DNA of 64,000 bases from Natrarchaeobius oligotrophus (GTDB lineage: Archaea; Halobacteriota; Halobacteria; Halobacteriales; Natrialbaceae): the NCBI RefSeq assembly GCF_003841465.1, contig NZ_REFZ01000005.1:248001-312000 (forward strand), read 5' to 3'. This document shows positions 2,972 to 64,000 of this stretch, piece by piece (the stretch's first letter is position 1; each line of letters starts with the position of its first letter). Below the pieces are notes generated by a model. That model saw only the letters and a program-made list of their open reading frames with translations, was not told the DNA's origin and searched no databases. The position numbers were made by a program, and so were the translations under genes.

Positions 2972-3886
2972 TCAGGCGATCTTGTCGTACTGCTCGGAGA
3001 GCTTCTCGGCGGCCTCGCCGAGCTGGTTGCGCTCGAACTCGGTGAGGTCCCACTCGACGATCTCCTCGACGCCGTTCGAGCCGAGCTTGACGGGGACGCC
3101 GAAGGCGGTGTCCTCGTGGCCGAACTCGCCCTCGAGTGTGACGCTTGCGGGCAACACCTCGCCCGTGTCGCGGAGAATCGCTTCGACCATGTGGCCAACG
3201 CCGGTCGCCGGCCCCCACTCGGTCGCGCCTTTCTTCTCGATGACGTTCATCGCCGAGGTCAGGAGTTCCTCGAGCAGTTCCGCTTTCTCGTCGTCGGTGA
3301 ACTCGAGGTCGCGGCCGTCGACGCGGACCTTCGAGAAGACGGGCACCTGCGCGTCGCCGTGCTCGCCGAGGATCGTCGCCTCGACGTTCTGGACGGGCGC
3401 GTCGTAGCGCTGGGAGATGACGTACCGGAATCGTGCGGAGTCGAGGCGACCGCCGAAGCCGATCACCTGCTCGCGGGCGCGGTCGCCCGCCTCGTAGAGG
3501 TGGCGGTTGAGCAGGTCGACGGGGTTCGACGTGGTGACGGTGATGAAGTCGTCGTTGTACTCCGCGAGCGAGGAGCCGATGTCCTCCATGATGGGTGCGT
3601 TGTCGCCCGCGAGGTCGATTCGGGTCTGGCCGGGCTGGCGGGGGATGCCGGCGGTGATGACGACGACGTCCGACCCCTCGGTTTCCTCGTAGCCGCCCTG
3701 TCTGATCGTCGTGTTCGAATCGTAGGCCGCTCCGTGGTTCGCGTCCGCGGCCTGTCCGATCGTGTCGTCTTTTTTGTCCGGAATGTCCACGAAGACGAGC
3801 TCGTCCGCGACGTCACGAAGCGCGATGTTGTAGCCTGCGGCGGCCCCGACCGTTCCGGCCGCGCCGACCACGCTAACTTTCGTCAT
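2972..3886 (-). CDS. mdh: Malate dehydrogenase
   Basis: NAD(P)-dependent oxidation of malate to oxaloacetate in the TCA cycle; 304 residues, of the lactate-dehydrogenase-like type found in haloarchaea. The N-terminal Rossmann glycine motif is [17 protein letters not shown]. Substrate-binding Arg residues are in [10 protein letters not shown] (about 85-94), and the catalytic His is in [12 protein letters not shown] (about 175). A TATA-like TTTAAC about 30 bases upstream of the ATG fits a very short leader. It is divergent from the FG-GAP lipoprotein gene, with about 170 bases between the two starts. Confidence 0.96.
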
Positions 3887-36205: not shown

Positions 36206-36462
36206 TTGTTCGCTATACGTAGTGTCCGTCTGACCACGATAAAATTCTGCTGGGCGTTTCGATCGGTGAGCCGTCGTCCTTGCCGGTATATTTCGACAGA
36301 CATCGAATCATAGGGCGACGATTGACGATTCGCCGACCGAACGACCCACGACGAACGACCCACGACGGACGTCGACGCCCGACGCACGGTTCGTTTCGGT
36401 CGATCCTCAGCGGATGAACGTTGCGGAACTGTTTTAGGCGCTCGCTGGCCAACACACCTATA

Positions 36463-39237
36463 ATGAGCGAACTGGCGGACGAGTACCGCCTCGAGTACTT
36501 CGAGGAGGAAGGGTTCGTGCGAACGGAGTGCTCCGAGTGCGGAGCGCACTTCTGGACGCGCGACGAGAGCCGGGAGACCTGTGGCGAACCGCCGTGTGCG
36601 GAGTACGATTTCATCGACAACCCCGGCTTCGAAGCGGAGTACAGTCTCGAGGAGATGCGCGAGGCGTTTCTCTCCTTTTTCGAAGAGCGCGATCACGAAC
36701 GAATCGATCCCTATCCCGTCGCCGCCAATCGCTGGCGCGACGACGTCCTGTTGACCCAGGCGTCGATCTACGACTTCCAGCCGCTGGTCACCTCCGGCGA
36801 GACGCCGCCGCCGGCGAATCCGTTGACGGTCTCCCAGCCGTGCATTCGGATGCAGGACATCGACAACGTCGGCAAGACGGGTCGTCACACGATGGCGTTC
36901 GAGATGATGGCCCACCACGCGTTCAACGCGCGCGAAGCGGCCGGTAATCGGTACGCCTACCAGGGCGAGGTGTACTGGAAGGATCGGACCGTCGAACTCT
37001 GTGACGAGCTGCTCGATTCGCTCGGTGCCGACGTCACCGACGTCACCTACATCGAGGATCCGTGGGTCGGCGGCGGGAACGCCGGTCCCGCGATCGAGGT
37101 CATCTACCGTGGACTCGAGCTGGCGACGCTCGTCTTCATGTGCATGGAGCAGGATCCGGACGGCGAGTACGAGCTCAAAGACGGCAACCGTTACTCCTAC
37201 ATGGACACGTACATCGTCGACACCGGCTACGGCCTCGAACGCTGGACCTGGATGAGCCAGGGAACGCCGACCGTCTACGAGGCGATCTACCCGGAGATGA
37301 TCTCCTTTTTGAAGGAAAACGCCGGCATCTCCCACACCGACGAGGAGGCCGCCCTCGTCAACCGCGCCGCCCACCTCTCCGGCCAGCTCGACATCGACGA
37401 CGTCGACGACGTCGAGGCCGCCCGCGACGACCTCGCCGCACAGCTCGACGTCTCGACCGACGAGCTTCGAACGCTGCTCGAACCGCTCGAGGACATCTAC
37501 GCGATCGCGGATCACTGCCGGACGCTCGCGTACATGCTCGGGGACGGCATCGTCCCCTCGAACGTCGGCACCGGCTACCTCGCCCGAATGGTGCTCCGGC
37601 GAACCAAGCGCCTCTGTGACACCGTCGGCGTCGACGCGCCGCTCGACGAACTCGTCGACATGCAGGCCGACCGACTCGGCTACGAAAACCGCGACACGAT
37701 CCGCGATATCGTCCGCACCGAGGTCGAGAAGTACCGCGAGACGCTCGAGCGCGGCGGTCGTCGGGTCGAGTCGCTCTCCGAGGAGTACGCGGCCAAAGGC
37801 GAGCCGATCCCGACCGACGAACTGATCGAACTCTACGACTCCCACGGCATCCAGCCCGACATGGTCGCCGAGATCGCAGACGACGTCGGCGCGGACGTCG
37901 ACGTCCCCGACGACTTCTACAGCCTCGTCGCACAGCGCCACGACAGCTCCGGGGCGCTCGAGTCGACGACCGAGGAGGAGGACGAACGGTTCGAGGACCT
38001 TCCGAAGACGGAGAAGCTCTACTACGACGACCAGCAGCGAACCCAGTTCGAGGCCGTCGTCCTCGACGTCTTCGAGCGCGATGAGGGCTACGACGTCGTC
38101 CTCGACCAGACGATGTTCTACCCCGAAGGCGGCGGCCAGCCCGCCGACACGGGGACGCTCTCGACCGACGACGTCACCGTCGACGTCACCGACGTCCAGA
38201 TCGAAGACGGCGTCGTCCTCCACCGAACCGACGACACCCCCGGCAAGGGCGAATTCGTCAACGGGCAGGTCGACACCGGACGGCGTCGCCAGCTCATGCG
38301 CCACCACACCGCCACGCACGTCGTCATCCACTCGGCGCGCGAGGTCCTCGGCGAGCACGTCCGCCAGGCCGGCGCACAGAAAGGCGTCGACTCTTCGCGC
38401 ATCGACCTGCGCCACTACGACCGGATCGACCGCGACGACGTCAAGGAGATCGAACGCATCGCCAACGAACTCGTGATGGACAACACGGCCGTCACCCAGG
38501 AGTGGCCGGATCGCCACGAGGCCGAGGCCGAACACGGCTTCGACCTCTACCAGGGCGGCATCCCGCCGGGCGAGCAGATCCGCCTCATCCACGTCGCGGA
38601 GGACGTCCAGGCCTGCGGGGGGACCCACGTCGCCCGCACCGGCGACATCGGCGCGATCAAGATTCGCTCGACCGAACGCGTCCAGGACGGCGTCGAGCGC
38701 ATCACGTTCGCGGCCGGCGAGGCCGCCCTCGAGGCGACCCAGGCGACGGAAGATGCCCTCTACGAGGCGGCCGAGGTGCTCGACGTCTCGCCCGCGGACG
38801 TCCCCGAGACCGCGGCGCGGTTTTTCGAGGAGTGGAAAGACCGCGGCAAGCAGATCGAGGAGCTGACAGAACAGCTCGCCGAGGCTCGCGCGGGCGGCGG
38901 CGACGGCGCGGACGAGGTCGACGTCGGCGAGACGACCGCGGTCGTCGACCGGATCGACACCGACGTGGACGAACTCCGGGCGACCGCGAACGCCATCGCA
39001 GAGGAAGGGACGATCGCCGTCCTCGGCAGCGGGGAAGACAGCGCGCAGTTCGTGGTCGCGGTTCCCGACGGCGTCGGCGTCAACGCCGGCGAGGTCGTCG
39101 GCGAACTCGCCGCGAAGGTCGGCGGCGGCGGCGGCGGTCCGCCCGACTTCGCACAGGGCGGCGGCCCCGACGTCGACGCCTTAGACGAGGCGCTCGAGGA
39201 CGCGCCCGACGTGTTGCGTCAGATCCAGGACGCCTGA
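36463..39237 (+). CDS. alaS: Alanyl-tRNA synthetase
   Basis: 924-residue enzyme that charges tRNA-Ala and edits mischarged Ser and Gly. The class II catalytic core contains [23 protein letters not shown] (about 85-108) and [19 protein letters not shown] (about 125). The editing domain has [15 protein letters not shown] (about 612) and a distal [13 protein letters not shown] (about 717). A coiled region and C-Ala domain follow, ending in a Gly-rich stretch. The length fits archaeal AlaS. CCTATAATGAGC at the start indicates a nearby promoter and the ATG used. Confidence 0.97.
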
Positions 39238-39352
39238 TCCGGATCTCGGTACTCGATAGTAGTTTTTCACACACGGAAGCCTGGTGGTAGCGATTTCTCC
39301 GTCGGCTGACCCCACAGATTTTGAGGCTAGCTGTCGTTTTATAACGGGTGTT

Positions 39353-39433
39353 TGGGACGGAAAACCTTTCACTCGTCATTGGGACGGAAAACCTTTCACT
39401 CGTCATTGGGACGGAAAACCTTTCACTCGTCAG
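39353..39433 (+). repeat. Three identical 27-bp repeats before hicB
   Basis: TGGGACGGAAAACCTTTCACTCGTCA/T is present three times without a mismatch apart from the last base (39353-39379, 39380-39406, 39407-39433). The array ends directly at the first hicB ATG. It is in frame with hicB (WDGKPFTRH) but no start codon lies just upstream, so a regulatory reading is favoured. Confidence 0.85.
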
Positions 39434-39670
39434 ATGGTGGTAGTAGACATGGGAGTTCAACCCCGGCGTGACAACAACAGCGATACTATCACTGTTACCC
39501 GTAGTGGTGACTGGTACGTCGCTAAAGACGAAGCGACCGGGGTTGCGAGTCAAGGTGAGACGAAAATTGAAGCAATCGAGAACCTTGCTGAAGCACTCGA
39601 GTTGCACACTCGCCCCGAACCAGAAGATTCTGACGGAGAAATCGAAGAATCCACGGCTCCGTGGTTCTAA
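39434..39670 (+). CDS. HicB-like antitoxin
   Basis: 78-residue HicB-family antitoxin-like protein. The core ITVTRSGDWYVAKDEATGVASQGETKIEAIENLAEALEL (about 18-56) is the RNase-H-like HicB fold with its GE(T/S)xxEAxxNL motif, quoted here across two segments. The C-terminus is acidic (PEPEDSDGEIEE). It normally binds and blocks HicA. The toxin gene follows after 67 bases. The DNA is more AT-rich than its neighbours, a sign of transfer. A second ATG at 39449 is possible. Confidence 0.8.
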   Translation: MVVVDMGVQPRRDNNSDTITVTRSGDWYVAKDEATGVASQGETKIEAIENLAEALELHTRPEPEDSDGEIEESTAPWF

Positions 39671-39737
39671 GCACGAGTTTCACTTTCGGTCCCGTGCGGG
39701 AACCCTTATTCACTTCCGCGAGAAATAGTGAAATATC

Positions 39738-39983
39738 GTGACACGAGGGACGTACTCCGGCCACGACATCATCAAAGCTCTCGGGAACTGGGGCTTCCAC
39801 AAGGTCGATCAGACCGGGAGTCACGTGAAGCTGAAATACGTCCATCCGGACACAGGCAAGACGAGATACGTCACTGTTCCGCTGCACGATGAACTCGCTC
39901 CTGGTACGCTTCGATCAATCGCAGATCAGGCCGGTGCTGAGGATTCCCAGGCGTTCCTCGACGAGATGGACAAAATGGTCTGA
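39738..39983 (+). CDS. HicA-like mRNA interferase toxin
   Basis: 81-residue double-stranded-RNA-binding-fold toxin that cleaves mRNA. The family core is visible: IIKALGNWGFHKVDQTGSHVKLKY (about 10-33) with the catalytic His in TGSHVK, then VTVPLHDELAPGTLRSIADQAG (about 45-66). The start codon is GTG. Antitoxin first, toxin second is less usual than the classical hicA-hicB order, but it is known. An IS-like sequence begins 8 bases after the stop. Confidence 0.85.
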   Translation: MTRGTYSGHDIIKALGNWGFHKVDQTGSHVKLKYVHPDTGKTRYVTVPLHDELAPGTLRSIADQAGAEDSQAFLDEMDKMV

Positions 39984-39990
39984 CCTAAAC

Positions 39991-40033
39991 CACGGCAGAG
40001 CCGTGAACGAGTAGGGTGGGGAGGAAGTCACTG
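39991..40033 (+). mobile_element. IS200/IS605-like right-end remnant
   Basis: Hairpin CACGGC-AGA-GCCGTG (39991-40005) is followed by GGTGGGGAGGAAGTCACTG (40015-40033), which matches 17 of 19 bases of the minus-strand motif at 63856-63874 next to the hairpin of the element at the right edge. No transposase or TnpB gene is left here; hicB-hicA take its place. Confidence 0.45.
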
Positions 40034-40098
40034 CCAGAGTCCGACCGCTACCGCGTAGAACCGAAACCGTCGCCTTCCTCCGGGTACTTCCAGTCGGT

Positions 40099-40899
40099 AT
40101 GCCCACCGCCACGAACGGCGACGTCTCGCTGTACTACGAGCGCGACGGCGATCCCGACGCGGAGTCGATCGTCTTCGTCCCCGAGGCCGGCCTCGGAGGT
40201 TGGCTCTGGGGCTGGCAACACGCCGGACTCGCCGGCCCGTTCGAGACCGTCGTCTGGGACCTCCGGGGAACCGGCCGCTCCGACGCGCCGCCCGGTCCGT
40301 ACGCTCTCGAGGACCTCGTCGCCGACCTCGAGGCGGTGCTTTCGGACTGCGAGATCCGAAACGCCCACCTGGTCGGCTGCGGCCTCGGCGGCGCGGTCGC
40401 GCTCGGTGTTGCCCGCGCGACGAACCGGGTCGAGACGCTGACGCTGCTCGCCACCGCGGCCCGCGGGGACGAGTACGACCTCGAGTCGCTGTTCGCCCCG
40501 CCGGACGACCGCGAGGCGCTTCGTCGGTCGCTCGAGACGGCGCTCTCGGGCGACTTTCGCGAGGCACAGCCCGACGTCGTCTCGGGGATCGTCGACTGGC
40601 GCGCCGACGGCGACGCCGACCGCAACGGGTGGGAGGCCCAGGTCGCCGCGCTCGAGGACTTCGACGCGACCGACTGGCTGCTCGAGGTGACACGGCCGAC
40701 GCTGGTCTTTCACGGAACCGACGACGAACTCGTTCCGCCCGCGGCGGGCCGCGATCTCGCCGACGGCCTCCCCCGCGGCGAGTTCGTCCCGCTCGAGGGC
40801 GCGGGACACCTCGCGCTCGTCGAACGATCGCGGACGGTCAACGATCGGATCGCGGGGCTGTTCGAGGAGCGGACGGACGGCAACCGCACTGGCCGTTGA
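40099..40899 (+). CDS. Alpha/beta-hydrolase-fold protein with no nucleophile
   Basis: 266-residue member of the alpha/beta-hydrolase superfamily, similar in layout to MenH-type esterases. Oxyanion region VVWDLRGTGRSDAPPGPY (about 50-67), acid loop FHGTDDELVPP (about 205) and the catalytic His in GAGHLALVE (about 235) are present. The nucleophile elbow reads Gly93-Cys-Gly-Leu-Gly, so the Ser at position 95 is replaced by Gly. It may be a non-hydrolytic lyase-like or binding form. The next gene encodes a degenerate adenylation-domain protein in the same direction, 87 bases on. Confidence 0.85.
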   Translation: MPTATNGDVSLYYERDGDPDAESIVFVPEAGLGGWLWGWQHAGLAGPFETVVWDLRGTGRSDAPPGPYALEDLVADLEAVLSDCEIRNAHLVGCGLGGAVALGVARATNRVETLTLLATAARGDEYDLESLFAPPDDREALRRSLETALSGDFREAQPDVVSGIVDWRADGDADRNGWEAQVAALEDFDATDWLLEVTRPTLVFHGTDDELVPPAAGRDLADGLPRGEFVPLEGAGHLALVERSRTVNDRIAGLFEERTDGNRTGR

Positions 40900-63855: not shown

Positions 63856-64000
63856 CAGTGACATCCTCCCCGCCGTGAACGGCGGGGCTTCCCTACAAAG
63901 GGAATCCAATCTGGCAGGTTTCAGTCCGAGTACGCCGCGAGCGTCATCTCCGAGGATTTCTCGCTCGTCTCGCGGTGGACTGTGGCGCTGTCACCGGCGC
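63856..64000 (-). mobile_element. IS200/IS605-type element right end, cut by window
   Basis: On the minus strand a perfect 8-bp hairpin CCCCGCCG-TGAA-CGGCGGGG (63868-63887) is followed by GAGGATGTCACTG, the type of right end that haloarchaeal IS200/IS605 elements carry. The coding part would lie to the right. The end is 6 bases after the HNH stop codon, so the element sits against the 3' end of that gene. The class call rests on the end structure only. Confidence 0.6.
63921..64000 (-). CDS. C-terminus of an edge-truncated ORF, possibly tnpB
   Basis: The minus-strand frame ends AGDSATVHRETSEKSSEM-TLAAYSD and stop, with normal codon use for the organism, 34 bases before the hairpin. The position just inside the element end is where TnpB coding ends in such elements. 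No motif of TnpB itself is in the window, so the identity is a guess. Confidence 0.35.
   Translation of the reverse strand, partial: AGDSATVHRETSEKSSEMTLAAYSD

Follow-up and report, generated by a model that had tools for sequence, protein, structure and literature searches.

A class 2-like hicBA operon with a triplicated candidate hicB promoter region beside alaS in Natrarchaeobius oligotrophus, followed by an IS200/IS605 remnant

Background

Hic toxin-antitoxin modules whose antitoxin lacks a DNA-binding domain have been described as the most prevalent, and how such modules are controlled without the domain has been raised as a question (Gerdes 2024, PMC10865869). As class 2 is set out in that paper, hicB precedes hicA, the two genes are closely linked or overlap, HicB has 60–90 aa and no DNA-binding domain, and HicA has 60–85 aa. 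Two operators or two promoters are described for the hic operons Y. pestis hicA3B3 and E. coli hicAB, which are bacterial, have hicA first and encode a HicB with an RHH or HTH domain (PMC11594946). For haloarchaea, CGAAA has been proposed as the BRE and TTWT as the TATA element, and 72% of the protein-coding transcripts of Haloferax volcanii are leaderless (PMC4983044). In Haloquadratum walsbyi, a 1500-bp TnpB element has been reduced to 52 bp (PMC3119063).

Here we describe a hicBA operon located in a 64-kb stretch of the Natrarchaeobius oligotrophus genome (the window). The toxin-antitoxin pair is of a known kind, with a patchy distribution in relatives, and it is followed by an IS remnant of a published kind, whereas the arrangement of its control DNA is new. 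The operon resembles class 2 hicBA in gene order, in protein size and in the lack of a DNA-binding domain in HicB, but differs in two respects: i) the genes are not closely linked or overlapping but are separated by a gap carrying a candidate promoter for hicA alone, and ii) a conserved motif, putatively the hicB promoter, is present in three tandem copies. Multiple control elements recall those of the Y. pestis and E. coli operons, although exact tandem triplication is not among the features that PMC11594946 describes in treating their control regions. We consider it probable that a compact hicBA operon of the class without a DNA-binding domain entered the site between alaS and a hydrolase gene (unless relatives have lost it), that the core of its hicB promoter was triplicated, and that the IS remnant behind hicA has nothing to do with hicA expression or mobility.

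Organization of the locus

The window has homologues in named haloarchaea. The region between the end of alaS (39237) and the start of an alpha/beta hydrolase gene (40099) is 861 bp long and contains, in order, three exact 27-bp units, hicB and, 67 nt further on, hicA, which is followed by an IS remnant of 48 bp. The features are as follows.

36421–39237, + strand: alaS (alanyl-tRNA synthetase), upstream neighbour (PF01411, E 6.8e-117), its first codon being the choice of the open-reading-frame listing
39259–39351: spacer of about 93 bp from the alaS-side junction to the repeats, with a TTTTATAA box at about 39335–39344
39352–39378, + strand: putative 27-bp promoter unit, copy 1 (motif 39359–39374)
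39379–39405, + strand: putative 27-bp promoter unit, copy 2 (motif 39386–39401)
39406–39432, + strand: putative 27-bp promoter unit, copy 3 (motif GGAAAACCTTTCACTC at 39413–39428, at -36 from the hicB ATG)
39449–39670, + strand: hicB antitoxin gene, 73 aa (PF24113, DUF7387, E 3.5e-14), with a further in-frame ATG at 39434
39698–39711, + strand: GGGAACCCTTATTC, a candidate promoter for hicA alone, some 40 nt ahead of the hicA GTG start
39738–39983, + strand: hicA toxin gene, 81 aa, GTG start (PF07927, E 1.3e-16; GSH motif at residues 27–29)
39984–40031, + strand: 48-bp terminal-only IS200/IS605 remnant (PATE), a putative left-end tip fused to a right end
40099–40899, + strand: alpha/beta hydrolase gene, downstream neighbour (PF00561)

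The G+C content of 39259–40031 is 0.532 compared with 0.667 for the whole window, a value matched in only about 0.08% of 2530 tiled 773-bp windows, while the flanking alaS and hydrolase genes have 0.670 and 0.727; this bears out the original prediction, made from the letters of this DNA, that the block is more AT-rich than its neighbours. The 93-bp spacer had no convincing match in 392 genomes of the order at E up to 1 (best non-self match E 1e-3 over 23 bp) and is possibly diverged ancestral intergenic DNA. No tRNA gene that could serve as an integration site was found in the window, and no structured RNA was matched by Rfam at 39200–40120 (E 0.1).

The domain matches agree with the predicted order of hicB followed by hicA. 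HicA was not matched by NCBIfam or PADLOC at E 0.01, PADLOC had no match for HicB either, and no solved structure was found for either protein by sequence. No DNA-binding domain was detected in HicB by Pfam or in its AF2 model (mean pLDDT 70.8), which has a b-b-b-a core, a tail of low confidence and no extra domain. The top PDB fold matches of this model, 2yzt and the antitoxin 3k6q, are HicB-like but non-significant (E 0.14 and 0.49); the 73-aa product likely adopts a HicB-like partial RNase H fold. By analogy with His23/24/28 of the HicA proteins treated in PMC11594946, the GSH motif may have a catalytic role. A second, degenerate hicBA-like copy is present outside the window (G000:C32:2636-3046), with a HicA fragment (a 51-aa frame, 62% identity over 29 residues) and a hicB DNA match of 71%. 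Among 66 candidate stretches on viral contigs, one partial hicB relative (residues 31–62) was found, which is uninformative as to a viral origin.

Tandem repeats and a conserved motif upstream of hicB

The 27-bp unit TTGGGACGGAAAACCTTTCACTCGTCA occurs as three exact tandem copies at 39352–39432. The array had been predicted to end at the hicB start, and it stops 1 nt short of the in-frame ATG at 39434 and 16 nt short of the one at 39449, which is conserved in homologues. With a 100% match, it had the second highest TRF score in the 64 kb (162), the highest (172) belonging to an array only 89% matched. Its 21-bp core gave three matches within 3 mismatches, against 0 expected from 100 shuffles. 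Since the three units are exactly identical, the triplication appears to be recent.

Each unit contains a motif that is present as a single GGAAAnCnTTTcAC copy 36–37 nt before the hicB ATG in homologues. Here the copies lie at -90, -63 and -36, with copy 3 at the conserved position. The tandem motif pattern was found in one of the 392 genomes of the order, namely that of N. oligotrophus, and in none of the other 391; within its own genome, the exact motif pattern is confined to the three array copies. When the upstream regions of 20 loci (this one and 19 homologous loci) were scored, 8 of the 12 other Natrinema-like/Halorussus regions had one strict motif each at -36/-37 of the hicB start. At this position, L119 (Halorussus) has the BRE/TATA-like CGGAAAATCTAT in place of the strict motif, and L126 and L080 (one site) have GGAAGGCATTTTAC; the hicB promoter of L072 shows weak likeness. 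The three Haloferax homologues have the BRE/TATA-like CCGAAAATCTATA at an equal distance from the hicB start, and boxes of the CCGAATGSTTAT type are present near the motif position in the four Halorubrum loci. In L118 (Haloferax marinum), a palindrome, CATACCATGGTATG, lies just before position 3001, between the TATA-like box and the hicB start codon; it is a different candidate operator.

The motif is 16–19 bp long and, counted from the conserved hicB ATG, spans about -37 to -20. In eight upstream regions, mean pairwise identity is 0.18–0.41 upstream of GGAAA and 0.95, 0.86 and 0.77 in the three successive 5-bp blocks from GGAAA; the conservation of the hicBA module thus starts at the motif, and it ends at the hicA stop codon. 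Among 125 genomes of the family, 9 contain the pattern GGAAARCNTTTSACNC, with 13 places in all. Three of these are in the present array, eight precede other hicB genes by an equal distance, and two belong to unrelated AT-rich DNA; a reversed control pattern had 4 matches. As the pattern was derived from hicB promoters, its enrichment before hicB is partly by construction. Among the open-licence PMC articles (no preprints) listed for archaeal hic promoters or tandem control repeats, beyond those cited here, none on this motif was found.

Considered as the core promoter of a leaderless gene, the motif has its candidate BRE/TATA at a conserved position (-37/-36), with a near-consensus box in the Haloferax homologues; the TATA-like part (CTTTCA here, ATTTCA in relatives) is weaker than the haloarchaeal TTWT consensus. 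Together with that consensus, the high proportion of leaderless transcripts in Haloferax volcanii makes the motif fit a promoter from which transcription begins right at the start codon. We therefore infer that the repeats are a multiplied hicB promoter region. The original prediction was that they may be the operator or a transposon end, of which a role in operon control stands; a transposon end is contradicted by the single copy found before hicB in genomes without such an IS end after hicA. The TTTTATAA box near 39335 could, against the promoter reading, give rise to a leadered transcript starting inside the repeats.

If the hicB promoter core does stand in place of the BRE and TATA of a leaderless mRNA, its triplication as an exact 27-bp unit would provide three start signals (or binding sites) spaced by 27 bp. 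From the copy nearest hicB, a leaderless hicB(-hicA) mRNA would arise as in relatives, and the two copies further upstream would each start an additional transcript, with a leader of about 27 or 54 nt. In all nine homologous hicB-hicA gaps that were read, hicA is preceded at a comparable distance by a T-rich box, which, together with GGGAACCCTTATTC, makes a separate hicA message possible. Since only the hicB promoter is multiplied, the balance may be shifted towards the antitoxin, with a gain in antitoxin-first transcription over what the separate hicA promoter supplies. The most likely effect of the triplication is to raise or retune antitoxin-first transcription.

A possible reading, compatible with the above though held with much less confidence, is that the motif serves as an operator. 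The dyad GAAA-N3-TTTC, which is present in most motif copies and overlaps the BRE/TATA, would be the site of a repressor or activator, either a host regulator or the HicA-HicB complex acting through another surface, and three copies would give cooperative or tighter control. The near confinement of the motif to hicB promoters, which account for 11 of its 13 places in the 125 genomes, argues for this, as do the two known operators of Y. pestis hicA3 (PMC11594946) and the fact that regulation of hic modules without a DNA-binding domain is treated as an open question in section 6 of PMC10865869. In addition, the weak TATA part and the long, specific motif with its dyad favour an overlapping operator over a plain core promoter. 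However, the arms of the dyad are only 4 bp long and one is broken in L112, the Haloferax homologues have a plain BRE/TATA-like box and no such dyad, and HicB, lacking a DNA-binding domain, is unlikely to bind the repeats in the classical HicB manner.

Somewhat less probable still, in our estimate, is that the three copies arose by slippage, neutral or at the level of the assembly, and have no effect. Their exact identity, indicating recent origin, and their occurrence in one genome only would suit this, but the unit includes the operon's most conserved non-coding stretch, and three exact copies in 81 bp give no obvious sign of misassembly. We also regard as unlikely a more elaborate proposal, in which the GGAAAnCnTTTCACnCGTC motif would be the control site of hicBA without a DNA-binding domain, where a trans-acting factor would read it at the BRE/TATA, and the array would act through slippage as a copy-number-variable switch setting the antitoxin:toxin ratio in this lineage.

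The alaS-hydrolase gap in other genomes

It had been suggested that empty sites be sought beside alaS. AlaS loci from 30 genomes (N. oligotrophus and 29 others), each reaching 1500 bp past the match, were compared. Within this distance, neither HicA nor HicB was found beside alaS in any of the 29 others, and 12 of these have the hydrolase gene beside alaS without hic. The block is absent from the syntenic site of a genome of the same genus, G003 (AlaS fragment 89% identical), in which the hic-free gap of 148 bp aligns at both ends: the alaS side matches over 30 bp about the end of that gene, as far as ..TACTCGAT, and the other side matches from GAGnnCGACCG until the hydrolase gene begins. By this alignment, hicBA is extra DNA relative to G003, the net extra length being 713 bp, with 632 bp from the repeats to the hicA stop and 48 bp of IS remnant. 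Since G003 is the single close alignable genome with an empty site, gain here and loss in G003 are not separable. G002, also of the same genus, shares about 57 bp of gap with G003, followed by other DNA with small frames (L068), so the alaS side of the gap may be prone to insertion. The gap of G001 differs.

The IS200/IS605 remnant behind hicA

A hairpin had been predicted after hicA, and CCACGGCAGAGCCGTG does start 7 nt past the hicA stop. As single-stranded DNA, the remnant is predicted to form a hairpin that is not exceptional (z -1.1). It consists of CCTAAACC (39984–39991) and a right end (39992–40031) ending in GTCAC. When the block was searched against 125 family genomes, matches were found in 63, mainly to hicBA homologues and to a 33–37-bp piece (window 39998–40034) with up to 97% identity in many genomes; a 71-bp piece had matches in 64 of the 392 order genomes at E 1e-4. 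The matching places are IS200/IS605 right ends, ..CCCCACCCTCAAGGAGCGAACGGCGnnAGCCGTGAGCGAGTAGGGTGGGGAGGAAGTCAC, with flanks that diverge beyond. Among 47 loci scanned, 27 distinct contexts with different flanks end in GTCAC, of which GTCA was preset by the search pattern, so that loci without the pattern are uncounted. Intact copies encode a DUF2080 protein and TnpB (L099: NF033496, E 1.5e-17; NF040570, E 2.6e-78). The motif is therefore a true right end, as the original prediction of an IS200/IS605-like end implied.

A left end, TTAC-CTAAA(t/c)CGAGG or close to it, precedes the tnpB operon in 6 of 11 element loci examined, and a seventh locus, L104, has it in a short form that lacks tnpB; none was seen in the other four. 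In the plus strand of the 64 kb, CCTAAA occurs once, at 39984, straight after hicA and abutting the right end. We regard CCTAAACC as a left-end tip with moderate confidence, since it comprises only 8 bp. The bases to its left, TGAC, are one base off the TTAC target. The single CCTAAA at this position and the lack of a left end to the left of hicB indicate that a remnant of about 48 bp lies downstream of hicA, with hicBA outside it.

The remnant resembles haloarchaeal IS200/IS605 elements with a DUF2080 protein and guided TnpB (L099–L107) in its right end AGCCGTGAnCGAGTAGGGTGGGGAGGAAGTCAC (up to 97% identity over 33–37 bp) but has no tnpB, no left-end hairpin and no left arm of the outer stem. 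With the terminal-only PATEs of H. walsbyi (ISHwa23, HqIRS46, down to 52 bp; PMC3119063), it shares a near-terminal palindrome, fused tips, a length of about 50 bp and the absence of target duplication; it differs from them in its IS family, in being present as one copy in the genome and in its left tip of only 8 bp. Other short tnpB-less forms of the same IS family are L158 (about 80 bp; G130:C1:3918679 region), with a longer left-right fusion than that of the remnant, and L104 (G015:C29; about 180 bp). A repeat family matching window 39992–40021 shares ACGGCnnAGCCGTGAGCGAGTAGGGTGGGG and continues as TAGTTTACTC or similar, not as AGGAAGTCAC; with 30-bp matches such as L153–L157 in many order genomes, it apparently represents a sister IS right end. 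The right end of the remnant's IS family occurs once in its own genome.

The original prediction had also compared the end motif with another IS end in the window.

63856–63874, - strand: right end of a separate TnpB element, sharing the terminal GGGGAGGAnGTCAC; tnpB, on the - strand, runs past the window end

The match of 17 of 19 bases is as described and reflects a terminal motif shared by different subgroups, since the element at 63856 belongs to another TnpB subgroup (NF040570, E 4.8e-36) and has only this motif in common with the remnant. Its TnpB frame (L065:1922-3022, 366 codons) matches mainly positions 159–387 of the 389-position profile, its N-terminal part being unusual.

We think it improbable that the remnant was at the site first and provided the junction at which hicBA joined by illegitimate recombination. 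In favour of this, the hicA stop and the left-end tip are directly adjacent (TGAC-CTAAA), with TGAC one base from the target; but homologous hicBA modules elsewhere also lose similarity at the hicA stop, so a join needs no IS, and G003 has neither remnant nor hicBA. Least credible is the small mobile cassette originally proposed, with hicBA in place of tnpB as cargo of a non-autonomous IS200/IS605 element (right end at 40031, left end near 39259): the true right end where the hydrolase-side flank begins, the low G+C content and the empty site in G003 would fit it, but 39238–39360 contains no left end (blastn against the 11 element loci gave only chance matches of 9–11 bp), the tip is at 39984 instead, an arm of the outer stem is missing from the right end, no IS end follows hicA in any of the 7 informative homologues among 8 3'-flank rows (the L119 row not being a hicA alignment), and Y1 TnpA (PF01797) was not found in the 69-contig draft genome (99.4% complete; controls positive in 5 of 14). 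In our preferred reading of a hicBA operon with a triplicated promoter core, the 48-bp remnant of a TnpB element is probably unrelated to hicA expression or mobility.

Conclusions

The analysis of this locus advises caution, since an IS end beside a toxin-antitoxin pair does not make the pair a cassette. It also draws attention to a short, strongly conserved DNA element that is found at a fixed place before haloarchaeal hicB genes and almost nowhere else in 125 genomes. Its natural triplication in N. oligotrophus provides a testable case for how hic modules without a DNA-binding domain may be controlled.
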